Part shown: positions 14,524-59,794 of the stretch, piece by piece
Layout of the letters: the number at the start of each line of letters is the position of its first letter
How positions within the stretch are numbered: position 1 is the stretch's first letter
Source of the DNA: a virus
DNA: 64,000 bases
Reading direction: 5' to 3' (one strand)
Virus record (IMG/VR): IMGVR_UViG_3300030060_008003
Span: 27,502-91,501 of that record
Program-made: the position numbers and the translations under genes
Notes under the pieces: generated by a model
The model's input: only the letters and a program-made list of their open reading frames with translations
Told to the model about the DNA's origin: nothing
Databases searched by the model: none

Positions 14524-17313
14524 CTATCTAATGTTGACATTTCCTTGAGTTTCACCATATACTAAACCACCTATTATATTAACAGTACCAGCCGTAGCTT
14601 TTACTGTAAGTCCACCATTTCCAGGTTTTCTTGGATTAGTAGAAGCCCATGACTGGCCTCCAGCTGCTCCCCAGCCACCGCCACCTGCACTAACATATTC
14701 AGTCCATCGCGCCGCCCAAAGATCTTGCCCACCTATTCTACGAACTGGTGCAATCTCATATACACCAGGTTGATTAGTACTACCACCACGTACTAAAGCA
14801 GATCTATGGTTATAACCATCCCAACCGGTTGGTGATAGATATGAAAATCCATTATAATCTAAAGTTATTGTAGTACCAAACTCTGTATGAGATCCCCTAC
14901 CTGGTTTATTTACACCAGCTACAATATAAGGAAGTCCAGGTGTACTATTATTAACCTGATCTGCTCTCCAGTGAGGACCTACTGCCCAGCTTCGACCAGC
15001 ACCAAAACCTCTTGCTTGTCTTAACGTATAACCAGAGTTCCAACCACGGTATGGTTGACTTCTATTATAAGCTGTTACATATGTTTCAATTACTTTATCT
15101 CTTGATCTACCTGGCCTAGGTATTACCTGTACATTAACTGATCCGTTATTACGCGGTGCTGTATTACTCCACTCCGGGCCATCAGTTTTTAAGTTACCAT
15201 CAGCATCTATAGCACCGAAACGTGCTCCAGGAATACCACCTGTCCCGCCACCATAAGCAGTAGCTGTTAGTATACGGCCACCTCCACCACCAGTCCCTTG
15301 ATCATCGTAGCCTTTTCTTCTTCTTCCATGAGCACCGCTCCCTCCGGCTTGTCCACCTACACCTGGTAATGCAGGCCACAATGGTCCCCAGCCAATTGTT
15401 ACAATATCACCTCTAGATTTAAATAATTGTAATGAATACTGACTAGTAAACTTATTATACCACCGACCGTTACTGCCAAGTTCACCAGGCGCGCCACCTG
15501 CTCCCCCAGCAGCAGTAGTTTTCCATAAATCATTCCTTGCACCTCTTACTGTAGATATATCTACTAGACCGCCATCTCCATCACCGAAATCCCACCCGGG
15601 GTATTGAAATATTGTAGACGTACCGCCCCAACCACCACCGGCACCACCACCGCCTCCTGATTCCCCTTCTAGAGAAGCAGAACCACCTCCACCTCCACCA
15701 CCGATACCACCAGCAGTATTATCGATAGTAATTTCAGAGTTTCCAATAACATGTATAGCATCTCCACCATCTTGCGCGTCAGAATAAAAACTACCGCCGT
15801 TACCGCCTCTACCCATAATAAATCCCTTGTTTATTAAGGTTAAACCACCAGGAAAATCATCTATGACCATTGCAGGAACTTTATCATTATTTGGATCATC
15901 AGAGTAAATGTAAACGCCATTATCAATAATAATTCGACAAGCAGCTTGCCCGTTCCATCCATTATCTACTGCCCATTGATTTAAATTAAATACGTTATTT
16001 TTAGTTGATATTTGATTACGATCAATGATAAACTCAAATGGTAAGTTTTCTCTTGGTCGTTCAGCTGGTGGTATATTATCAACAGAATCAAGAGGTACAC
16101 GTCTCCAGAAATATACTGGGTAATTAGGTGGTATATTATTATGTCCTATACACTGACCTGTTGTTGTAGATTCAACAACTCTCGAACCTGGAACTAATCC
16201 ATAATATAAATTTTCACCAAAACGTGCTTGCTCCGGTAATTCGTTTAACTCTATCAACCTATTAACACCCGCTAACGCTTTTTGTGCTTCTTTTACCCCG
16301 AGAACACCGATGATAAAATCACGTGCTTTAAGTAAATCTGCATCCGTAAACCTACCTGGATGCACTCTACTCTGTGTACGAGGATCAAATATAGGTCTAG
16401 CAATAAAATACTCTGTACCTTGAAATGTCCATCTCACACCAATTGGTCTTGGACTATTGCCAATAAATTTACCTGTTGTATTTAACATACCACCCCAACC
16501 AGGACCACCAGCAGATGGTTGCGCCCAGCCTCTCAGTGATTGATTTGAATATTGTGGATCAAAATCTGCATCAGTATATGTTCTACCCTGCTCATGACGA
16601 GCTTTAATTAAATAATCACGGTAATTTAATTGATCGTTGTATTCGGTATTATTTTGAAATGCTACAATAGCATCACTATCTAGATAACGCTCATCCTCAC
16701 CAGTTAATTGTTTCGGGTTAATAGTATCTCCGAAGTAATGTATAAAACCAACATTTGTACCTTCACCTTGTTTACCAGCTGGAACTATCTCTGTCCTAGT
16801 ATTAGTTGTGTGGGTATGGTTTGGTAGATCTTCTAATAATATAGGGGCTCTATACTCACCAGCTATATCACCCTGTTGAAGATTATTACCATTTCTTTGT
16901 CTACTACCGCCCGCTGTAAAAGTAAAAGTATCGTTATTTTTATCTGTATACGTTCCAGCACCAACTGCAAATAGCCCTTCTGATTGTAAAATCCATCTTG
17001 TACCCATTATTCTAGATCCTGGGTTTACAAAATCTGTTGTCATTATTATAACATTAATAGGGAAAAAAGCATCTAACCATTCTTTTTGATATGACCATCC
17101 TATAGGCTCCACAAAGCTATTAATTATAAATCTGTTGTCAGCTGAACTTAGAGATATACCGGTTACATTTCCCACCCCGTCGTACACTTTTGCTACCCCA
17201 GCTGGGTGTTCTCCAGCATCACGTCTATCCCAAGAAGCAATACTACCACCGCTTATATGTAATAAAGATGTGTATTGATCTGATATACGTTGTTGTGAAA
17301 GGCTTTCTGGCAT
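14524..17313 (-). CDS. Tail-collar protein fused to a poly-glycine adhesin
   Basis: 929 aa. The first ~410 residues mirror the 359-aa paralogue: MPESLSQQRISDQYTSLLHI, the knob with LLEDLPNHTHTTN, and the ending HNNIPPNYPVYFWRRVP. The remaining ~515 residues begin with a beta domain (NGWNGQAACRIIIDNGVYIY, GGLTLINKGFIMGRGGNGG) followed by many Gly runs, one of eight residues. This architecture matches gp38-like adhesins built from polyglycine-II helices, the receptor-binding tips of several T4-like phages (known for that family). It is the best candidate here for the host-recognition protein. A late promoter lies 6 bases before the ATG. Confidence 0.8.
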   Translation of the reverse strand: MPESLSQQRISDQYTSLLHISGGSIASWDRRDAGEHPAGVAKVYDGVGNVTGISLSSADNRFIINSFVEPIGWSYQKEWLDAFFPINVIIMTTDFVNPGSRIMGTRWILQSEGLFAVGAGTYTDKNNDTFTFTAGGSRQRNGNNLQQGDIAGEYRAPILLEDLPNHTHTTNTRTEIVPAGKQGEGTNVGFIHYFGDTINPKQLTGEDERYLDSDAIVAFQNNTEYNDQLNYRDYLIKARHEQGRTYTDADFDPQYSNQSLRGWAQPSAGGPGWGGMLNTTGKFIGNSPRPIGVRWTFQGTEYFIARPIFDPRTQSRVHPGRFTDADLLKARDFIIGVLGVKEAQKALAGVNRLIELNELPEQARFGENLYYGLVPGSRVVESTTTGQCIGHNNIPPNYPVYFWRRVPLDSVDNIPPAERPRENLPFEFIIDRNQISTKNNVFNLNQWAVDNGWNGQAACRIIIDNGVYIYSDDPNNDKVPAMVIDDFPGGLTLINKGFIMGRGGNGGSFYSDAQDGGDAIHVIGNSEITIDNTAGGIGGGGGGGSASLEGESGGGGGAGGGWGGTSTIFQYPGWDFGDGDGGLVDISTVRGARNDLWKTTAAGGAGGAPGELGSNGRWYNKFTSQYSLQLFKSRGDIVTIGWGPLWPALPGVGGQAGGSGAHGRRRKGYDDQGTGGGGGRILTATAYGGGTGGIPGARFGAIDADGNLKTDGPEWSNTAPRNNGSVNVQVIPRPGRSRDKVIETYVTAYNRSQPYRGWNSGYTLRQARGFGAGRSWAVGPHWRADQVNNSTPGLPYIVAGVNKPGRGSHTEFGTTITLDYNGFSYLSPTGWDGYNHRSALVRGGSTNQPGVYEIAPVRRIGGQDLWAARWTEYVSAGGGGWGAAGGQSWASTNPRKPGNGGLTVKATAGTVNIIGGLVYGETQGNVNIR

Positions 17314-49301: not shown

Positions 49302-50123
49302 ATGCCATCAACGCCTCCATGTAATCAAAATAGATTAAACTGCCTTCCAGAGGAAGTTTTAGCAGCAACTGCTATACCTTCTTGTGGTCAGCTTGTTAGT
49401 CCATATAACTTACAAGCAGAGCAGTTAGTATTTGATCAGGCATTTAACGATTTAATTAACAACTTTGGCATACCGGTAGATTACTATATTAACACCTTTA
49501 ATCTTTCTGCTGCTGATTTACTCTACGGTGAGGACTTTGGCAACGAAACTAACAGAAGACAATTCCAAGGTCCGTTATCAGGTATGCAAATGTACGTTGA
49601 GCTATCAGATGATGCTATTAATTTATCTAAGTTTGGCTTTGATCCTGATGATGAGTTTACAGCCTTTGTACATATAAGCTCTTTCCAATCTACAGCGTCA
49701 GCATATTTTGATTATTCAGCTGTTGCTCAAGCAATTGAACCAAAAGCAGGTGATGTAATTGATCTTAAAGTGTTAGGATGTGATAGACCAAATCAAAGAG
49801 GTTCAGTTATGTTTCAGGTAACAGAGAGAATGGATCAAGACTTAGCTGTATTGAACCCTGTACTTGGTCATTACATTTACAGACTTAGAGGTAAGAGATT
49901 TAATTACTCGTTTGAATCAGGGTTATCAAGCGAACCTGTTAATGAGCAAGTCTACGATAGTACAAAGAGTGGTATACTATCTACTGATCTCTTTGACCAG
50001 TCAGCATCTGAAGGTAAGACTTATCCTAATGAGCACGATCCTTATGATATTAACGATGTATCAAAGACACAAGTAATGGATATGGATGTCAATGATACAG
50101 ACATCTATGGCTCGTATTATTAG
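49302..50123 (+). CDS. gp14: Neck protein gp14
   Basis: 273 aa (T4 gp14: 256 aa). It parallels T4 gp14 through AADLLYGEDFGN (T4 has PDLIFGEDLKN), EPKAGDVIDLKVLG, MFQVTERMDQDLAVLNPVLG and HYIYRLRGKRFNYSFESGL. gp14 with gp13 completes the head-tail neck. It is 1 base after the nucleotidyltransferase gene and shares its late promoter. Convergent with the GT9-like gene, with a 4-base overlap. Confidence 0.72.
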   Translation: MPSTPPCNQNRLNCLPEEVLAATAIPSCGQLVSPYNLQAEQLVFDQAFNDLINNFGIPVDYYINTFNLSAADLLYGEDFGNETNRRQFQGPLSGMQMYVELSDDAINLSKFGFDPDDEFTAFVHISSFQSTASAYFDYSAVAQAIEPKAGDVIDLKVLGCDRPNQRGSVMFQVTERMDQDLAVLNPVLGHYIYRLRGKRFNYSFESGLSSEPVNEQVYDSTKSGILSTDLFDQSASEGKTYPNEHDPYDINDVSKTQVMDMDVNDTDIYGSYY

Positions 50124-51013
50124 CCAACAGCTTTAATAATAGCTTGTACGTCGTGTAACTCATCCACACTATCATAAGGGCATTGATGAATGACACCTTG
50201 GAAATCGTAATCGTAAAGATATGAATCAACTGTACCTTCATCCCGCGCTACCTTAGGTACAATGTTAGTATGCATTTCATATCCAAATACTTTAGGCTGT
50301 GTATTAACCCATACAACAACAGATGGTAATTGAAGCGGTACAGCAGCATGCTGTAGAGATGAATCAATAAACAATCTCTTCTGAGCGTGAGCAACCATAG
50401 CAAAGAGAGGCTTTTTACCAATTGTTTTATCAAAACGATAACAGTTATTTAACTTAGGATGAAATTCATAACATATATGCACAATGTTATATTTCTCAGC
50501 TAAACCATCAACTACTTCCTGTGCTTGAGAAGGGTGCATATCTCTTGTCCATGAGTAAGGGTGTTGCTGATGATCTGGACCAGGTCCGCCAAATGGTTGA
50601 AATGCTAATAAAGGTCTGTTATCACCAGCAAACTGACTCATATAAGCCCGAGCTTCTTCTATCTCTCTAAAATTAAAATTTAGAATAGGCTTTTCTCCAT
50701 TATACTTTGTACCAATCATATCACACCATGTCTTAATTAAGTGTGACTTTTTCGTAATATGACTAGTTTGCTTATATGGATCTTGAGCAAATACTTTAAC
50801 ATCTTTACCCTTAATAACGTCTTGATAAAAATAAGGCGTGTTACCAATTCTATAGAATCTAGCAACGTCCTTATTCTTAACCCATACTTCAGGCCAAGCA
50901 GAGACAACAATAATCTTTCGCTTAGGATTAGCCTTCTTATACGCTGCTGTTACAGCTGTTGCAGCGACATTTTTACCAATGCCCCCTTCGATGTGAAATA
51001 CAGTAGTAGCCAT
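50120..51013 (-). CDS. GT9-like glycosyltransferase (heptosyltransferase type)
   Basis: 297 aa, GT-B fold. The N-terminus FHIEGGIGKNVAATAVTAAY, with a basic segment and IIVVSAWPEVW, is the acceptor-domain start of LPS heptosyltransferases. The C-terminal half has LLAFQPFGGPGPDHQQHPYS, YNIVHICYEFHP and FIDSSLQHAAVPLQLPSVVV, the donor-binding part. It probably modifies LPS or a virion glycan. No late box precedes it; an AT-rich element resembling TATTAT lies before the ATG. Confidence 0.72.
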   Translation of the reverse strand: MATTVFHIEGGIGKNVAATAVTAAYKKANPKRKIIVVSAWPEVWVKNKDVARFYRIGNTPYFYQDVIKGKDVKVFAQDPYKQTSHITKKSHLIKTWCDMIGTKYNGEKPILNFNFREIEEARAYMSQFAGDNRPLLAFQPFGGPGPDHQQHPYSWTRDMHPSQAQEVVDGLAEKYNIVHICYEFHPKLNNCYRFDKTIGKKPLFAMVAHAQKRLFIDSSLQHAAVPLQLPSVVVWVNTQPKVFGYEMHTNIVPKVARDEGTVDSYLYDYDFQGVIHQCPYDSVDELHDVQAIIKAVG

Positions 51014-51052: not shown

Positions 51053-53449
51053 TTATGGTCCAAGTGAGATGAGTAAACAAGTACCACATGCACCATTACG
51101 ATAGACCATTCCCTCTACTTTTGGATCTGATGTTGGTAGACCGAATCCACAACTATCAGCACTAAGCCAAAGTCTGTTTGTATGTAGAGTCTTAGCTGAT
51201 ACTGCAGTTATGTCAGTACCAAATACAGAGGAGAATTTATGCTCGCAATTTCTTCCAATACAGTTGCAACAACCGCCGCCGATAAATCCAAAATCTGCAC
51301 AAACATCATTACAATAACCACTAGCAACTCCACTATAGCAGCATTTAACGCAACCATACTCACCGCCAACTATAGACGAAAAGCACCCACCGTCAGATAT
51401 TTGATTTGCATTTCCACTACCTATAAAGCTATTTTTTGTACAAACGAAATGATTACTACCACCGGCTATAGTACTCTGACAACCAGCTTTTAAAATAGCA
51501 TTGCAAAAACCACCAACAATTGCAGCTTGATTTGTCGTCGTACAGTTAGCATTACCACCACCTAAGAATGAGCAATTACCAGCAGCAGATAATGAATTTC
51601 CACCTACTACTGTTGAATAGCTGTTACGTGCTGTATTAACGCAACCACCTACAATACTAGCAAATGATCCGTGGGTTGTATTTCTTGCACCACCTACAAT
51701 CACACTAGATGCTCCACATGCACTGTTACATGCACCACCTCCCACAAATGCGCTTGTAGCAACTACGTTCGAATAACCACCAACTATTACTCCGTTTTTG
51801 GCATCACCCGAAGTAGTGTTTTTACTACCACCAACAATTACTGTTTGCTTACCACATGCGACTTTATTGTTTTGACCGCCGCCGATAAAGTTACCAGCAC
51901 CACCGGCAGAGTATGTATCGTTTTTACAACCTCCAACAACTACATCAAAACAAGAATGAGCAGATAAAGAATAACCACCGCCAATAAATGCACAAGCACC
52001 GCAACTGACTTGGTTTTGAGCTCCACCAGCTATTGTTCCAAATGCTGCACTGTCTATACAATTGCTTTCACCGCCTCCAATAGTTGCATAACAAACACAG
52101 GCAATATTATCTGTACCGCCTCCAATGGTCGCACCGGCCTCGAGCGCGCAGTTATTTCTACCTCCGGCTATAGTGGTTACACAAGCAGTAGCCCTATTAC
52201 TTTTACCCCCACCCACAGTAGAATGACAACAGCCGCATGCGATGTTTGATTCACCTCCTCCTACTGTTCCGTAGTTAGATACGGAGTTGCAAAGTCCCCC
52301 TCCGATAGTTCCAAAACAATCTTGTGAATCATGATTACATCCACCACCTATAACTCCAAATTTTCCACATGAGCTATTCGCCGCACCGCCGGCAATAGTT
52401 GCAAAATCACCCATTGCGCTGTTACTAAAGCCACCACCAACAAATGTACCTTTACCGGCACTGCAGTTACTATGACCTCCAACAACAGCACTACCTGGGT
52501 TTGTTGCATCATTACCGCAACCACCGCCAACAAACGAACTTAGGCCTGAGGCTATATTTGACATTCCGCCTACAACTACCGACCCACAATTACCAGAAGC
52601 AGCGTTACCACAACCACCACCAATAAAAGAACTTAATCCGGTCGCGCAATTACTACCACCAGCTACTACACCAGCATAATCACCTGCTGCAGTTGTTTGA
52701 TTGCAACATCCACCTACGACAGAATAATCTCCAGCAGCGGTATTTTTAAATCCACCAACAACTGAACTATGGCATCCTGAAGCAGTATTGCAACATCCAC
52801 CAGTAACATTACTAGAAGGACATGAAGCAATATTGCAATATCCACCTCCAACTGCAGCATAAGTTGCACTTGCGGCATTATCATCACCACCAGCAACTGT
52901 AGCGTAATTACCGCTAGCACAGTTTTGTCTACCACCTCCTACGGTACTGTTTATAGCGCTTGCTACATTAGTTCCACCACCACCAACTGTACTACAAGTT
53001 GCTGTAGCGCAGTTGGCTGTACCACCTGCAACTGTACCATGATTAGCTGTAGCGCAGTTACTCTGACCACCTCCAATTACTGTATATGTAGTAGTAGTGC
53101 AGTGATCGCAACCACCACCAATAATACTACACGTACCTGAAGCACGGTTATTACAGCCACCAGTGACAGAAGAGTTAGAACCTACAGCAATAGAACCCCC
53201 GGCAGCTACGATTAAGCTGCCATTAGCGCTTAGGTTACCTTTTATAGATTGATTTGTTTGAAAGAAACTATTAGCCAGTGGAGTCGCTAAAGGTTTATCT
53301 TGCGCTGTACCATACTTTGCTCCAGACAGGTAATTTGCGATCGAACTCAGTGATGCGCGCCGAGTTTGTGCTTCATCGACTAATGCGACTTCTTCAGTTC
53401 CAGTATATGGTATGATGCCTTCGTTGAGCTCAGTAATCTTTTTACCCAT
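51053..53449 (-). CDS. Cysteine-rich YadA-like beta-roll fibre protein
   Basis: 798 aa. An N-terminal attachment region (residues 1-85, MGKKITELNEGIIPYTGTEE) is followed by about 42 repeats of roughly 15 residues with consensus [IV]-G-G-G-x-x-N-x-A, the left-handed beta-roll of YadA/trimeric autotransporter heads. By hand count about 58 residues are Cys, often directly after GGG or Asn. The C-terminus (TNRLWLSADSCGFGLPTSDP, GMVYRNG) is typical of marine T4-like fibre ends. It is probably a trimeric host-contact fibre. A late promoter lies 5 bases before the ATG. It is upstream of the lysis-type genes. Confidence 0.82.
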   Translation of the reverse strand: MGKKITELNEGIIPYTGTEEVALVDEAQTRRASLSSIANYLSGAKYGTAQDKPLATPLANSFFQTNQSIKGNLSANGSLIVAAGGSIAVGSNSSVTGGCNNRASGTCSIIGGGCDHCTTTTYTVIGGGQSNCATANHGTVAGGTANCATATCSTVGGGGTNVASAINSTVGGGRQNCASGNYATVAGGDDNAASATYAAVGGGYCNIASCPSSNVTGGCCNTASGCHSSVVGGFKNTAAGDYSVVGGCCNQTTAAGDYAGVVAGGSNCATGLSSFIGGGCGNAASGNCGSVVVGGMSNIASGLSSFVGGGCGNDATNPGSAVVGGHSNCSAGKGTFVGGGFSNSAMGDFATIAGGAANSSCGKFGVIGGGCNHDSQDCFGTIGGGLCNSVSNYGTVGGGESNIACGCCHSTVGGGKSNRATACVTTIAGGRNNCALEAGATIGGGTDNIACVCYATIGGGESNCIDSAAFGTIAGGAQNQVSCGACAFIGGGYSLSAHSCFDVVVGGCKNDTYSAGGAGNFIGGGQNNKVACGKQTVIVGGSKNTTSGDAKNGVIVGGYSNVVATSAFVGGGACNSACGASSVIVGGARNTTHGSFASIVGGCVNTARNSYSTVVGGNSLSAAGNCSFLGGGNANCTTTNQAAIVGGFCNAILKAGCQSTIAGGSNHFVCTKNSFIGSGNANQISDGGCFSSIVGGEYGCVKCCYSGVASGYCNDVCADFGFIGGGCCNCIGRNCEHKFSSVFGTDITAVSAKTLHTNRLWLSADSCGFGLPTSDPKVEGMVYRNGACGTCLLISLGP
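51240..53195 (-). repeat. About 42 degenerate ~45-bp coding repeats (beta-roll array)
   Basis: Each unit encodes [IV]GGG-x-x-N-x-A followed by 6-9 variable residues. The DNA copies are diverged, so the repeat is conserved at protein level. Confidence 0.8.
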
Positions 53450-54104: not shown

Positions 54105-54785
54105 GTGAAGATAAAATTTGATGAAGCGTCTCATACCTATACGCATAAAGATACTGGTGAAAAATTTATATCGGTAACAACTTTACTCGGTAAGTACAAG
54201 CAACCCTTTGATAGAGATGGTCACTCGAAGCGAGTAGCAGATAGAGAAGGCGTATCACAAGAGTTAGTATTGGAGATGTGGGAAAAGGAAAAGATTAGAG
54301 CTTGTACTCGTGGTACTAACATTCATAAGATTTTAGAGGATTATATCAGTTACGGAGATGTAGAAGATAATTACGGGTGGTTGTGTAAGTCGTATGATAA
54401 GGCTGCAGAACGCTCAATTGATTCATTTAGTACTGTGCTGTGTGAGAATTTATTGTATAATGAAGACCACTGCATAGCTGGAACTGCTGATCTAATATAT
54501 GAACATAAGCATGAGTTTACGATTGGTGATTTTAAAACTAATAAGAGATTTAGATTTAGTTCTCCATATTCAGAACGTTTAAAAGATCCTGTAAGTCATC
54601 TTCATAACTGTGAGTTTAATCTATATGGGTTGCAGTTATCTCTTTATGCTTATCTGTATGAAAAAATGTCTGGAAAGAGATGTAGAAAATGTGTTATCTT
54701 TTATCTAAAAGACGATAGATTTTTATCTTATCATGTAAACTACATGAAAGCAGAGGTAGAAGCTCTTCTAGCTAGTATGAAGTAA
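54105..54785 (+). CDS. PD-(D/E)XK nuclease (RecB/Cas4-like exonuclease)
   Basis: 226 aa, GTG start. The catalytic core reads RGTNIHKILEDYI (helix with His), IAGTADLIYEHKHEFTIGDF followed by KTNK, which gives the Asp...(D/E)xK arrangement (GTADLI, then IGDFKTNK), and YGLQLSLYAYL, the Gln-Tyr helix motif of RecB-family nucleases. It probably degrades or processes DNA ends during replication, recombination or host DNA breakdown. A TATAAT element rather than a late box precedes it. It is convergent with SOD, with an 18-base overlap. Confidence 0.82.
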   Translation: MKIKFDEASHTYTHKDTGEKFISVTTLLGKYKQPFDRDGHSKRVADREGVSQELVLEMWEKEKIRACTRGTNIHKILEDYISYGDVEDNYGWLCKSYDKAAERSIDSFSTVLCENLLYNEDHCIAGTADLIYEHKHEFTIGDFKTNKRFRFSSPYSERLKDPVSHLHNCEFNLYGLQLSLYAYLYEKMSGKRCRKCVIFYLKDDRFLSYHVNYMKAEVEALLASMK

Positions 54786-55394
54786 AGCAGAGCAAAAGTC
54801 CCAGTTAACAATATCAAAGAAGTTTTGTAACCATTCTTGTCTTTTAGGTCCATACATAAGGTAGTAGCTGTGCTCCCATACATCTACTCCTAGAACAGGC
54901 TTACCTAAGTCAAACATTAAAGGATTATCTTGATTAGGCGTCCTTACTAAATCTAATCTACCATTCTTTTCTACTAACCAGCCCCATCCTGATCCAAATT
55001 GACCCTTAGCGTTTTCAATAAATTCTTTTTTAAACTTTCCGAAAGTACCAAATCGTTTTAAGATTCTATCTTTAATCTCACCTGTAAAGTCACTTCCACC
55101 TGGCTTCATCATGTTAAAAAACAACTGATGATTATATGCTCCTCCAGCGTTATCCTTTATATGGTCGTTATATCTTTTGATATCTTTAACTAACTCTACA
55201 AGAGGTGGTTTCTTTTTATTCACCATAGCTGCATTTAATTTTTTAACATATCCTTTATAATGATCGTTGTAGTGAAAGTCAGTCGTTTGTCTGTTTACTA
55301 CAGGCTCGAGTGCGCTTAAAGAATACGGAAGATTAATAGGCTTATATGAGCCGACTTTTTCTAAAATTAAGTTTACCTCTCTTGAAAATGACAT
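54768..55394 (-). CDS. sod: Fe/Mn superoxide dismutase, Mn-type residues
   Basis: 208 aa. All four metal ligands are visible: His in TDFHYNDHYKGY, His in AGGAYNHQLFF, and Asp and His in VDVWEHSYYLMYG. The second-shell residues AGGxxNH and RTPNQDNP follow the Mn-type pattern (Gly77/Gln146 in E. coli SodA numbering) rather than the Fe type. It converts superoxide to oxygen and hydrogen peroxide. No signal peptide is seen, so it is cytoplasmic or virion-associated. A late promoter lies 6 bases before the ATG, head to head with the next gene's promoter. It is an uncommon phage gene. Confidence 0.93.
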   Translation of the reverse strand: MSFSREVNLILEKVGSYKPINLPYSLSALEPVVNRQTTDFHYNDHYKGYVKKLNAAMVNKKKPPLVELVKDIKRYNDHIKDNAGGAYNHQLFFNMMKPGGSDFTGEIKDRILKRFGTFGKFKKEFIENAKGQFGSGWGWLVEKNGRLDLVRTPNQDNPLMFDLGKPVLGVDVWEHSYYLMYGPKRQEWLQNFFDIVNWDFCSALLHTS

Positions 55395-55658: not shown

Positions 55659-56699
55659 ATGCGTATAGAGACTGAGCTAAAGTACGATTTTGATGATGTT
55701 CTTATTCGACCTAAGAGGTCGACACTGACGTCACGAAAAGAGGTTGATTTAACTAGAACGTTTAGATTTAAATACGGTGGTTCGTATCACGGTATACCAG
55801 TTATGGCTGCTAACATGGATGGAGTTGGCACGTTAGAGGTAGGAAGAACCTTAAGTGACTTAGATCTCTTTACTTGTTACAAGAAAGACATTGATGAAAA
55901 GGAGCTTATTGAAGAGCTTAAAGATAATCAAGGTAAACATGTAGCTGTAACTGTAGGTAGAAACGAGCATGATTATGAGAGGTTAGCTCGTATTAACAAG
56001 AAAGCTCCGGTTCGTAATATTTGTATTGATGTAGCAAACGGTTATACTCAAGCACTTGTTGATTTTGTAAAGGTAGTAAGAAGAACGTTTCCTCAAAGGA
56101 CAATTATAGCGGGTAATGTTGTAACAGGTGAAATGGTTGAAGAGCTTCTTTTAGCTGGAGCAGATATTATTAAAGTTGGGATTGGATCAGGAAGCGTTTG
56201 TACTACGCGACTTAAGACGGGAGTTGGTTATCCTCAGTTTAGTTGCATTGCTGAATGTGCTGATGCTGCTCATGGATTAGATGGCCATATTATTGCTGAT
56301 GGAGGATGTACGACTCCGGGTGATGTAGCTAAAGCATTTGGTGCTGGTGCTGATTTTGTTATGCTAGGTTCTATGTTAGCTGGGTCAATAGAAGGAGGTG
56401 GTGAAAAGATTACTATCGATGATAAAGAGTATGTAGAGTTCTATGGAATGAGTAGTAAGAAGGCTAACGAAAAGCATAACGGAGGTCTTATGGATTACAG
56501 AACGTCAGAAGGACGTAGAGTAGTTCTTCCATTTAAAGGACCTATGCGTTATATTGTTCAAGATATTCTAGGAGGTATTAGGAGTACATGTACATATGTA
56601 GGAGCTGCTAAGCTAAAGCATTTAAGCAAGTGCGCTACGTTTGTTAGATGTACTAAGACGCATAGTAAGATATATGAGCCAAACACCTTAGAGATTTAA
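55659..56699 (+). CDS. guaC: GMP reductase
   Basis: 346 aa, almost the length of E. coli GuaC (347). The catalytic loop KVGIGSGSVCTTRLKTGVGY holds the active Cys, followed by ADGGCTTPGDVAKAFGAGAD and FVMLGSMLAG (phosphate binding), FYGMSSKKANEKH and DILGGIRSTCTYVGA. IMP dehydrogenases have CBS domains and a longer form, both absent here. The enzyme reduces GMP to IMP with NADPH and releases ammonia, moving guanine nucleotides toward adenine nucleotides. It uses a TATAAT promoter, not a late one, so expression is early or middle. It is followed 4 bases later by sugar genes. Confidence 0.9.
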   Translation: MRIETELKYDFDDVLIRPKRSTLTSRKEVDLTRTFRFKYGGSYHGIPVMAANMDGVGTLEVGRTLSDLDLFTCYKKDIDEKELIEELKDNQGKHVAVTVGRNEHDYERLARINKKAPVRNICIDVANGYTQALVDFVKVVRRTFPQRTIIAGNVVTGEMVEELLLAGADIIKVGIGSGSVCTTRLKTGVGYPQFSCIAECADAAHGLDGHIIADGGCTTPGDVAKAFGAGADFVMLGSMLAGSIEGGGEKITIDDKEYVEFYGMSSKKANEKHNGGLMDYRTSEGRRVVLPFKGPMRYIVQDILGGIRSTCTYVGAAKLKHLSKCATFVRCTKTHSKIYEPNTLEI

Positions 56700-56703
56700 A
56701 AAT

Positions 56704-57573
56704 ATGAAAAAAATTGTAATATTAGGAAACGGATATGTTGGAGGTTATCTATATGATAGATTGCTCTTTCCCGGACCAGATAAAAAAAGCTACGACGTAA
56801 AGATCGAAAAAAGAAAGCTGCTAAACTATAATGATATTAAGTGTCTTGAAATATATCTAGACAGAGAAAAGCCTGATTATGTTATCAACTGTTCAGGTTT
56901 TACAGGGAGGCCTAATGTTGATGAGGGTGAGTTTAAAAAGGAGCTTTGCTTTGAACTGAATACATTTGGACCGCTGAGAGTAAGTAACTTATGTAAGACA
57001 AAGAACATTAATTATATTCATATTTCTTCTGGATGTATATACACAGGTTATGAAAAGCCTTGGGAAGAAGATGACGAACCTAATTTTGGTCTGTTTGATG
57101 AGGACTCTTCTACTTACTCAAAGAGTAAGCATGCATTTGAGTTAGGATGTGATTGGGGACTAATACTAAGAGTTAGAATGCCGTTCTGTGATATCCTTCA
57201 TGGTAGATCTTTCATTACAAAGATATATAAGTACGATAACCTAATCGATAAAGTTAACTCAAAGACATATATTCCTCAGCTTCTCGATTTTATTGAGCAT
57301 TTTGTTAGTAGAGGGTACGAAGCTAAAGAAAAAGATATCTTAAATTTTGTTAACCCAGAGCCTCTCTCTACTAAGAAGGTAACAAAGTTAATGGATGACT
57401 TTGATGTTACTAATCCTAACTGGGAGTGGGTTAATTTTGAAGATCTCGAGACAACAGCCAATAGATCTAACTGTGTGATGTCAACTGATAAGTTAGAAAA
57501 CGAATATGGATTCGAGATATGGGATGAAAAAGTTGCACTTGAGAGCGCGCTGAATAATATAATAACGGTATGA
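56704..57573 (+). CDS. NAD-dependent sugar reductase/epimerase (RmlD-like SDR)
   Basis: 289 aa extended short-chain dehydrogenase. The Rossmann start is KIVILGNGYVGGYLYDRLL. INYIHISSGCIYTGYEKP holds the catalytic Ser/Thr region and TYSKSKHAFELG is the Tyr-x3-Lys pair. This is closest in layout to dTDP-4-dehydrorhamnose reductases and related GDP-sugar enzymes. It is first in a tightly packed cassette (next gene overlaps by 4 bases), so it probably acts on a nucleotide sugar made by its neighbours. Confidence 0.75.
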   Translation: MKKIVILGNGYVGGYLYDRLLFPGPDKKSYDVKIEKRKLLNYNDIKCLEIYLDREKPDYVINCSGFTGRPNVDEGEFKKELCFELNTFGPLRVSNLCKTKNINYIHISSGCIYTGYEKPWEEDDEPNFGLFDEDSSTYSKSKHAFELGCDWGLILRVRMPFCDILHGRSFITKIYKYDNLIDKVNSKTYIPQLLDFIEHFVSRGYEAKEKDILNFVNPEPLSTKKVTKLMDDFDVTNPNWEWVNFEDLETTANRSNCVMSTDKLENEYGFEIWDEKVALESALNNIITV

Positions 57574-58013
57574 GTAAAGAAATTTTAGGATTCACTGCAG
57601 GTAACTTTGATCTGCTTCATCCGGGTTACATTAGATGTTTTAGAGAAGCTAAGAGACATTGTGATAAATTTATTGTCTTTCTCCAAAAAGATCCTTCTCT
57701 ACATAGGAAGAGTAAATATAAACCTGTAATATCTCTATACAATAGATACGAGGCACTGATGGCTATTAGATATATTGACGATGTCTATACATATCAAACA
57801 GAAGAAGAGCTTTATAATTTAATTAAATTCTGGAAGCCTGATGTTCGTATTTTAGGAGAAGATTATATCGAGAAAGAATCCTTTACAGGAGACGATTTAC
57901 CTCCTAGAGTAATTTATACAACTCGCTCTCATGGCTGGTCAACTACTCGACTAAAAGATCTTATTACTAAACAGACTATCAAACAGAATCCAGACGTCTT
58001 TAATAAGAAATAA
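57570..58013 (+). CDS. Cytidylyltransferase-family nucleotidyltransferase (TagD/HldE-like)
   Basis: 147 aa. FTAGNFDLLHPGYIRCFREA carries the HxGH-type motif, here HPGY with the last His replaced by Tyr. WKPDVRILGEDY and TRSHGWSTTRLKDLI (the ISSTxL-type motif) complete the fold. Such enzymes make CDP-glycerol or ADP-heptose-like activated sugars. The Tyr substitution is unusual for this motif and its effect is unknown. The start overlaps the upstream stop (ATGA). Confidence 0.8.
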   Translation: MSKEILGFTAGNFDLLHPGYIRCFREAKRHCDKFIVFLQKDPSLHRKSKYKPVISLYNRYEALMAIRYIDDVYTYQTEEELYNLIKFWKPDVRILGEDYIEKESFTGDDLPPRVIYTTRSHGWSTTRLKDLITKQTIKQNPDVFNKK

Positions 58014-58014
58014 C

Positions 58015-58818
58015 ATGAAGATATGTGTTGTAGTATTAACCTATAAATCTGATTTATATGATCATTTTGATAGAATAAGAAGAAAATACTTAGAAACAAA
58101 AGATGTAGACTATTATTTCTTGTATAATGGCACTGACAAAAGTTTAAGCAATCCAAAGGAGCATAATCTTAATTATTATTCCTACCTCCGACACTATGAA
58201 AGTCCCCATTACCCGGTAATGTGGGATAAATTTATGGCTTTTATATCTGAAACAGCTGGAAAATATGATTATGTTATTAGGGTAAACTGTTCCACGTTTG
58301 TAAATGTAGATATTATAATACAAAAAATTAAACAACTTAACAATAGAGAACATTTATATATGGGACATTTTAATGGAAGTCTCTGTCGAGAATGTCGATC
58401 TAATTGTGCTGATGTAGATAGTGAGGTAGGTGATTATGTAAGTAGTGCATTTTATGATAAAGATGTCTGGATTAATTTCAACCATTACAGCTACGCCCAC
58501 GGAGGTTGCATCGTCTTCTCTAACGCAACCCTAGAAAAGCTATTTGAACTTAGTAAAACTCTTAAACATAATCCGGAAGCACGAATGCGTTCAGATGATA
58601 TACTAATAGGCTTAGGTTTGAGAGAAGTTCTTAAAATACCTCTTACATATTTAGATAGGTATTACCTCAGCGGCTTAAATACTTTACCATCTGAGAAAAA
58701 CCTAAGTCAGATTGTAGAGGAAGCATTAACATACCCTCAAATACGAATAAGAAATAGTAATAGAGATTTAATTGATAAGAATATATGGAATATTATAGAA
58801 AGGAAACTACAATTGTAA
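58015..58818 (+). CDS. Glycosyltransferase, fringe/GT31-like
   Basis: 267 aa. ICVVVLTYKSDLYDHFDRIR and YDYVIRVNCSTFVNVDII resemble the nucleotide-sugar-binding part of GT31-type enzymes, where a DDD-like motif sits before FVN (here RVNCST). YAHGGCIVFSNATLEKLFEL matches the Gly-Gly loop, and MRSDDILIGLGLREV the catalytic acidic motif. It lies 1 base after the nucleotidyltransferase. It probably attaches the sugar made by this cassette. The altered DxD position makes the call moderate. Confidence 0.6.
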   Translation: MKICVVVLTYKSDLYDHFDRIRRKYLETKDVDYYFLYNGTDKSLSNPKEHNLNYYSYLRHYESPHYPVMWDKFMAFISETAGKYDYVIRVNCSTFVNVDIIIQKIKQLNNREHLYMGHFNGSLCRECRSNCADVDSEVGDYVSSAFYDKDVWINFNHYSYAHGGCIVFSNATLEKLFELSKTLKHNPEARMRSDDILIGLGLREVLKIPLTYLDRYYLSGLNTLPSEKNLSQIVEEALTYPQIRIRNSNRDLIDKNIWNIIERKLQL

Positions 58819-58819
58819 G

Positions 58820-59794
58820 ATGAGCACATATGTCGTAACTGGAGGATGTGGCTTTATTGGGTCATATGTAATTAAAGAGCTTCTTAAAAGCAAAGATGAG
58901 GACCTCTTTATCTACAATATTGATAAGATGGGCATTGGCTCTTCAGAAGAAAATATTGTTGAAGATGAGCGAGTTGAGCATCACTTTATGGATATTGCTA
59001 ATGGTGATGCATGGAGGCTTCATATGTCCAATCCATTAGATTTCATAACAGAAGATGTTGACTATGTCATCCACTTAGCTGCTGAGTCTCATGTTGATCG
59101 TTCTATTGACAATCCCTTAGAGTTTGTTGACTCAAATTTAAAAGGCACAGCTAACGTATTAGAGCTAGTAAGAAAGCATAGATCTAGAATGGTTCATGTA
59201 TCAACTGATGAAGTGTATGGTCATCTCGAAAGGGACGACCCTCCGTTTACTGAAGAAAGTCCTCTTGCTCCTAGATCACCTTACTCAGCAACTAAAGCTG
59301 GTTCTGATCTTCTCGTACAATCTTATATTGAGACATTCGGTATTGATGCTTCTATTACTAGATGCTGTAACAACTACGGACCACGACAAGGTGATGAGAA
59401 GTTAATTCCTACTGTAATTAGATCAATTGTCAAAGGTGATAAAATTCCTGTATATGGTACAGGAGAAAATATTAGAGAATGGATTCATGCTGAAGATCAT
59501 GCTAAGGCTATTATCGAAGTACTACTAACCGGAGAAGAACAGCTATATAATATTCCCGGAAGCGGTACATATACTAATGTAAAGCTAATTAATATTATCA
59601 TTCAGATGCTTGAGCTCTTTTATCCAGAATATAAGAGAGAGAAAAAAGAATATATTGAGTTTGTAAAAGACAGAGCAGGACATGATTTTAAATATGAGCT
59701 CTCTACTAAACACGACTTGCAAGCTGTAAAAGATCAGAAGAGCTTCTCTATTGAGGAAACAATAAAGTACTATGTTGAACAATACAAAGCTTAA
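58820..59794 (+). CDS. rmlB: dTDP-glucose 4,6-dehydratase-like (RmlB)
   Basis: 324 aa. VVTGGCGFIGSYVIKELL binds NAD. HLAAESHVDRSIDNP, VHVSTDEVYGHL with Thr-Asp-Glu, and SPYSATKAGSDLLVQSY with Tyr-x3-Lys are the diagnostic RmlB motifs. CNNYGPRQGDEKLIPTVI and GENIREWIHAEDHAKAI close the sugar site. It makes the 4-keto-6-deoxy sugar from which rhamnose and related sugars derive. It is last in the cassette, overlapping a convergent gene by 4 bases. Confidence 0.85.
   Translation: MSTYVVTGGCGFIGSYVIKELLKSKDEDLFIYNIDKMGIGSSEENIVEDERVEHHFMDIANGDAWRLHMSNPLDFITEDVDYVIHLAAESHVDRSIDNPLEFVDSNLKGTANVLELVRKHRSRMVHVSTDEVYGHLERDDPPFTEESPLAPRSPYSATKAGSDLLVQSYIETFGIDASITRCCNNYGPRQGDEKLIPTVIRSIVKGDKIPVYGTGENIREWIHAEDHAKAIIEVLLTGEEQLYNIPGSGTYTNVKLINIIIQMLELFYPEYKREKKEYIEFVKDRAGHDFKYELSTKHDLQAVKDQKSFSIEETIKYYVEQYKA

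Follow-up and report, generated by a model that had tools for sequence, protein, structure and literature searches.

TibC heptosylates the autotransporter TibA, and the glycocin S-glycosyltransferases of the SunS type are GT2-type enzymes with small-peptide substrates. Together with AAH, TibC represents the family of bacterial autotransporter heptosyltransferases (BAHT), which combines a GT9-like fold with a gene position beside a beta-solenoid protein and modifies serine, not threonine, of beta-helical adhesins (PMC4358343). SunS-type enzymes attach the sugar to cysteine sulfur (PMC6405829, PMC12457901), and in heptosyltransferases the catalytic base Asp13 is present in all members (PMC5713226). 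In the trimeric left-handed beta-rolls, the repeat has 14–15 residues, with a conserved glycine at position 8; residues 5 and 7 are turned towards the three-fold axis, and position 6 lies in the chain interior; UspA1 has an extra glycine at position 9 (PMC9543794).

Here, we analyze a viral locus in which a gene for a GT9-fold glycosyltransferase-like protein (GT) adjoins that of a fibre-like beta-roll protein rich in cysteine. The window, i.e., the whole stretch of 64,000 nucleotides that was analyzed, is a part of a 91.5-kb virus record. We consider it probable that the exposed cysteines of the fibre are glycosylated by the adjacent GT9-fold enzyme; the catalysis, the acceptor, the sugar chemistry, the location on the virion, and the biological role are what we infer.

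The phage GT resembles TibC and AAH in its fold and in the position of its gene, and it is proposed to modify, as they do, a large number of exposed side chains, its partner being a putative adhesin. In contrast to TibC and AAH, it has 297 residues rather than about 400, carries lysine in place of the catalytic aspartate, has a cysteine-rich partner, and belongs to a family seen in viruses; the BAHT iron finger, formed by four conserved cysteines, is absent from it. With WaaC, WaaF, and other GT9 proteins it shares the fold and the donor motif, whereas the Asp13-to-Lys replacement, a Pfam GT9 score under the cut-off, and a fibre gene as the genomic partner set it apart from WaaC and WaaF. Its common point with the SunS type is the proposed chemistry on cysteine sulfur, the differences being the GT-B/GT9 fold and a fibre acceptor with tens of sites. 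The system would work like TibC/TibA, yet, judged by the features tested, it lies outside the BAHT family.

The fibre-like protein and its genomic setting

The fibre-like ORF encodes an N-terminal region, a long roll, and a C-terminal cap (Table 1). The N-terminal region is near-invariant in three relatives (L001–L003) and probably is the attachment end. The roll consists of about 39–41 layers of ~15 residues each, with the pattern S-T-V-G-G-G-x-x-N-x-A-S-x-x-x, and the GG pair is present in nearly all aligned layers. A phmmer comparison with solved structures matched the protein to 3pr7, the head trimer of UspA1 (E 2.6e-21), in agreement with the YadA-like beta-roll proposed in the initial annotation. 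The roll type is considered right because this head matches the sequence; an AlphaFold2 model of the roll monomer, built on a four-sequence alignment, had a pLDDT of 41.7. The protein is probably trimeric and presumably located on the virion. The 15-residue GGxxN repeat is common to the UspA1/YadA head and the phage roll. Unlike UspA1 and YadA, the phage protein is fibre-like, has 7% cysteine at exposed sites, and lacks a Pfam autotransporter anchor, as no anchor family was found at its C-terminus in a scan up to E 1. An ice-binding role of the roll was rejected, since Pfam LbR_Ice_bind (PF21300) scored 25.1 bits against a cut-off of 30.

The best matches of the tail sheath encoded in the window are to marine T4-like phages, and the source of the fibre ORF is an uncultured marine T4-like phage. 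A weak holin match adjoins the fibre gene. Searches of annotated phage records by tblastn with the roll, the N-terminus, and the C-terminal half yielded no matches, for which low-complexity masking is probably partly responsible, and a distant blastn search returned short chance matches only.

Several other genes of the window deserve mention. A 929-aa protein with only two cysteines, which has a Gp10 C-terminal match and a weak one to Gp38-like adhesins, is probably another receptor-binding protein. The superoxide dismutase gene, which lies a few genes from the fibre, is syntenic in L001–L003, L101, and L124, and GMP reductase is an unusual metabolic gene for a phage.

Table 1. Features of the fibre locus, of the rest of the window, and of the AG-345-L05 record; positions refer to the window unless a record is named.
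Feature	Position	Strand	Content	Basis or remark
Fibre-like ORF	51053-53449	-	ATG start, 798 aa
Fibre N-terminal region	53198..53449	-	residues 1-84, 'MGKKITELNEG...', 0 Cys	translation
Left-handed beta-roll	51239..53197	-	residues 85-737, 55/58 Cys	repeats, homology, column mapping
Fibre C-terminal cap	51053..51238	-	residues 738-798, '...LHTNRLWLSADSCGFGLPTSDPKVEGMVYRNGACGTCLLISLGP', 3 Cys, plus stop codon
GT9-fold glycosyltransferase-like protein	50120-51013	-	297 aa	AlphaFold2, Foldseek, weak Pfam GT9
Fe/Mn superoxide dismutase	54768-55394	-		Sod_Fe_C, E 1e-32
GMP reductase	55659-56699	+		PRK05096, 489 bits, above NCBIfam cut-off
Sugar-nucleotide cluster	56704-59794	+	RmlD-like, RfaE/G3P-cytidylyltransferase-like, Fringe-like GT, and dTDP-glucose 4,6-dehydratase-like genes
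Gp10/Gp38-like protein	14524-17313	-	929 aa
AG-345-L05 'AIGxxAG' repeat protein	L554:4093-11565			Kyanoviridae, single-cell origin

Number and placement of the cysteines

The initial annotation had counted about 58 cysteines by hand; the ORF contains exactly 58 in 798 residues (7.3%), of which 55 fall within positions 51240–53195, that is, residues 85–737. At a frequency of 1.2%, typical of other ORFs, the binomial probability of at least 58 cysteines is 6e-27. Other long ORFs of the window have 0–4.1% cysteine, most of the structural ones less than 1%.

To place the cysteine-bearing columns of the repeat in the structure, we relied on column statistics and on the LPBR structures described in the literature (PMC9543794). 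The cysteines occupy positions +2, +3, +5, +7, and −5 to −7 relative to the GG pair, which bears out the earlier observation that they recur at particular repeat positions, and in the window protein they never occur on the S-T-V-G-G-G strand or at the Asn or Ala position. Cysteine accounts for 47 of 273 residues on the exposed columns versus 0 of 312 on the strand, core, Asn, and Ala columns of this protein (Fisher 3e-17). The same confinement to exposed columns is seen in 3,198 layers from 137 viral rolls and in the three relatives, none of which has more than one exception.

Between relatives, 81–93% of the exposed-column cysteines are kept, compared to 55–90% for Ser, Thr, Ala, and Asn, cysteine being higher in each pair; about one-fifth of the cysteine sites turn over. 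Neutral drift as the sole cause is rejected, as the cysteines are confined to exposed sites and are better conserved than Ser, Thr, or Ala. The stacking in columns expected in the initial annotation is not observed above chance. In the window protein, same-column cysteine pairs in neighbouring layers number 5 versus 6.8 expected, stacking is at the chance level in the relatives as well, and permutation statistics of pairs over 77 cysteine-rich proteins reveal no general ladder. In the latter set, column −5 avoids stacking (3 pairs seen, 20 expected), and excesses are observed for consecutive cysteines at columns 7–8 (21 versus 5.8 expected) and for column 2 paired with column 5 two layers on (50 versus 25.5); these excesses may have arisen by tandem duplication. 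The fibre protein itself has a few CxxC and CC motifs, and no clear sequence motif was found around cysteine.

Cysteine was expected to be rare in rolls of this type, but in phages this is not so, as tens of IMG/VR rolls contain 2–10%. The pattern V-G-G-C-x-N-x-A-x-G, which itself includes cysteine and thus yields a set enriched by design, matched at least 120 IMG/VR stretches, mostly in rolls with 2–10% cysteine. Among the matches listed, cysteine content is bimodal, with 49 of 137 rolls below 0.5% and 76 of 137 in the range of 2–10%, and a cysteine-neutral pattern gave 12 cysteine-rich loci out of 71 listed. The cysteine-containing pattern found a single roll (0.8% cysteine) among the 117 stretches listed for bacterial and archaeal genomes; given GC limits, a scarcity of cysteine-rich rolls in prokaryotes is only suggested by these matches.

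The GT9-fold protein and its association with cysteine

The GT gene directly follows the fibre gene in the same orientation, with a gap of 39 nt. An AlphaFold2 model based on 27 sequences has a pLDDT of 93.6, and Foldseek matches it to the GT9 structures 3tov (E 1e-11, TM 0.71) and 1psw (E 1.7e-10), to heptosyltransferases II and I (WaaF, WaaC), and to TibC (E 9e-8). The Pfam GT9 model (PF01075) gives 14.7 bits for the window protein against a gathering score of 22, and it matches 6 of 27 family members at E 0.1, the best (E 0.0019) being under the cut-off. The donor motif D-S/T-G-x-x-H-x-x-A-A-L is retained in the family, and in a profile comparison the invariant Asp217 aligns with the donor-site Asp261 of WaaC, which is needed for activity. 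The equivalent of Asp13 is Lys14, a lysine being present in each of the 26 family rows covering this position, and the Lys192 motif is lost; taken together, these changes could mean that glycosyltransferase activity is lost or different. The family alignment contains no invariant or nearly invariant cysteine, and hence the phage GT has no iron finger of the TibC type.

Homologs of the window GT, at 33–98% identity, are found near cysteine-rich rolls in many different viral contigs, and GT relatives occur in at least 579 IMG/VR stretches. PHROG 8954, which carries no functional assignment, is matched by 24 of the 27 family members. A collection of 50,697 annotated phage records yielded one match, in Marine virus AG-345-L05, and about 795 bacterial genomes from two phyla gave weak partial matches only (best E 3e-6), as would be expected from generic GT9 enzymes. 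Within the databases searched, the family is apparently viral and uncultured.

The sugar-nucleotide cluster of the window is a possible source of the donor for the fibre enzyme. For two of its genes, 57570 and 58820, matches to a number of sugar-nucleotide families were obtained, the best being rfaE_dom_II and dTDP-glucose 4,6-dehydratase. Phage-encoded supply of ADP-heptose was rejected, since both matches are under the cut-offs.

Among roll loci flanked by 3 kb or more, the GT gene was found in 30 of 58 cysteine-rich and in none of 47 cysteine-poor ones (P 2.5e-10). This count, like those below, was made among the IMG/VR matches listed, the main cysteine-rich set having been drawn with the cysteine-containing pattern; the contigs are fragments, and the figures are therefore rough. 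When no GT was present in the locus of a cysteine-rich roll, the record often contained one elsewhere (36/48), compared to a single weak partial match (E 1e-8) in 50 whole records with cysteine-poor rolls. Taking locus and whole record together, a GT accompanies 69 of 86 cysteine-rich and 1 of 60 cysteine-poor rolls among the matches listed. Counted by sequence cluster, the respective numbers among these matches are 50 of 60 and 1 of 13 (P 4e-7), the cysteine-poor rolls comprising these 13 clusters only.

Sampling from the GT side gave a concordant result. Most GTs sit directly downstream of a repeat protein, and for 49 of 58 non-redundant GTs among the matches listed the upstream gene has at least 2% cysteine, the median for upstream genes being 4.3% versus 1.2% in other ORFs. 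Of these 49 cysteine-rich partners, 13 were not counted as GGxxN rolls.

Proteins with a 17-residue repeat, 'NFLGxxAGxxATxA', were picked regardless of cysteine content and are separate from the rolls; they look like a second solenoid family of aquatic phages. Such proteins, with the extended motif 'NSNFLGxxAGxxATxA', occur both with and without cysteine (L410–L431, L495, and others). Among the matches listed, a GT was found with 11 of 15 cysteine-rich members (10 in the locus and one in the record) and with none of 83 cysteine-poor ones, and here, too, cysteine is confined to variable columns. As a control for lineage, gp23-bearing T4-like records of this family were considered separately: a GT is present in 3/3 cysteine-rich and 0/15 cysteine-poor records. 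Nine loci were found when a third type of repeat was sought. Marine virus AG-345-L05 encodes a 2,491-aa 'AIGxxAG' repeat protein with 75 cysteines ~15 kb from its GT.

No GT was found for ten cysteine-rich clusters, some of them in records of 40–70 kb. Six records with cysteine-rich rolls and no detectable GT (L030, L037, L041, L116, L119, and L212; some of 40–54 kb) also encode several structural proteins that are cysteine-rich. These six records may have either another enzyme or another role for cysteine. Overall, the association between GT and cysteine is strong and well supported, as it holds in at least two repeat families and differently drawn samples concur. It is very likely that the link is functional in some way.

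Explanations for the exposed cysteines

The proposed S-glycosylation would proceed as follows. Fibre and enzyme would be synthesized side by side in the cytoplasm of the host, in which the cysteines are reduced, and the GT9-fold enzyme would put sugar onto the sulfur of exposed cysteines along the rigid rod. A thiol acceptor should ionize near neutral pH and require no strong base, and the loss of Asp13 would fit a thiol acceptor for this reason. Many individually dispensable sites would serve as redundant acceptors, as in hyperglycosylated autotransporters, and the observed turnover of cysteine sites agrees with such redundancy. The product would be a sugar-coated fibre with thioether links resistant to hydrolysis, and the coat might protect the fibre, adjust its binding, or itself be the ligand. 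Points that weigh against S-glycosylation are the altered catalytic positions of the GT, the cysteine-rich clusters in which no GT was found, the Pfam GT9 scores under the cut-off, the lack of a clear motif around cysteine, and the excess of consecutive cysteines at columns 7–8, which would not be expected from the spacing of sugars.

Four other explanations were considered. The enzyme might act as a phage TibC and glycosylate serine or threonine of the fibre, with cysteine having some other, linked role. Exposed Ser and Thr are indeed abundant, and TibC and AAH act on serine, not threonine, of beta-helical adhesins (PMC4358343), but cysteine-poor rolls and repeats, equally rich in exposed Ser and Thr, lack the enzyme, and the catalytic aspartate that serves as a base for hydroxyl acceptors is replaced by lysine, which makes this reading unlikely, if conceivable.

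Also unlikely is a GT-fold protein that has lost catalysis and serves as an assembly factor or chaperone in the folding of cysteine-rich repeats. The cysteines would then act by themselves, in thiol adhesion, oxidation-dependent hardening, or metal binding. A position directly downstream of the fibre gene is a usual one for a chaperone, the catalytic positions are altered, and the family is absent from the bacterial genomes searched. Nevertheless, the donor-site aspartate is conserved and the GT9 fold is predicted with high confidence, and a chaperone would have no reason to track cysteine across different repeat families.

We regard as improbable that the GT and cysteine-rich rolls simply travel in one lineage or module, with neither acting on the other, cysteine being tolerated because phage proteins fold in the reducing cytoplasm. 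While the cysteine-poor rolls belong for the most part to other groups of phages, and neighbouring genes, e.g., that at 49302–50123, are likewise enriched in cysteine-rich loci, the link persists within T4-like (gp23) records and in the 17-residue repeat family, as well as in the GT-side sampling, where identity among GTs falls to about 33%; nor does co-descent account for cysteines that occur only at exposed sites and are better conserved there than Ser, Thr, or Ala.

Finally, the two options of the initial annotation, disulfides that staple the trimer and a ladder of stacked metal sites, are highly improbable. A rigid rod with many cysteines, its few CxxC and CC motifs, and the excess at columns 7–8 might suggest such roles, but stapling of the trimer core needs cysteine at position 5 or 7 (PMC9543794), where, as on the interior strand, there is none. 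A ladder needs stacked or paired cysteines, whereas same-column stacking in the window protein does not exceed chance and the 77 proteins show no general ladder; in addition, cysteine sites turn over among close relatives.

We therefore return to S-glycosylation of the fibre. In its general form, it is moderately probable that a virus-specific GT9-fold family with lysine in place of aspartate S-glycosylates beta-solenoid fibres at tens of exposed cysteines, and that such systems are widespread in uncultured aquatic phages. We know of no S-glycosyltransferase of the GT9 type, and the literature searched contained neither such an enzyme nor an S-glycosylation system on phage fibres; if the proposal is true, it would, as far as we know, be without precedent both for a GT9-type S-glycosyltransferase and for a system of this kind on phage fibres. 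It would account for the abundant cysteine in many environmental phage fibres and would provide a proposed function for PHROG 8954, a large unannotated gene family. A cysteine-directed and probably hydrolysis-resistant sugar coat would thereby be added to the repertoire of phage fibres.
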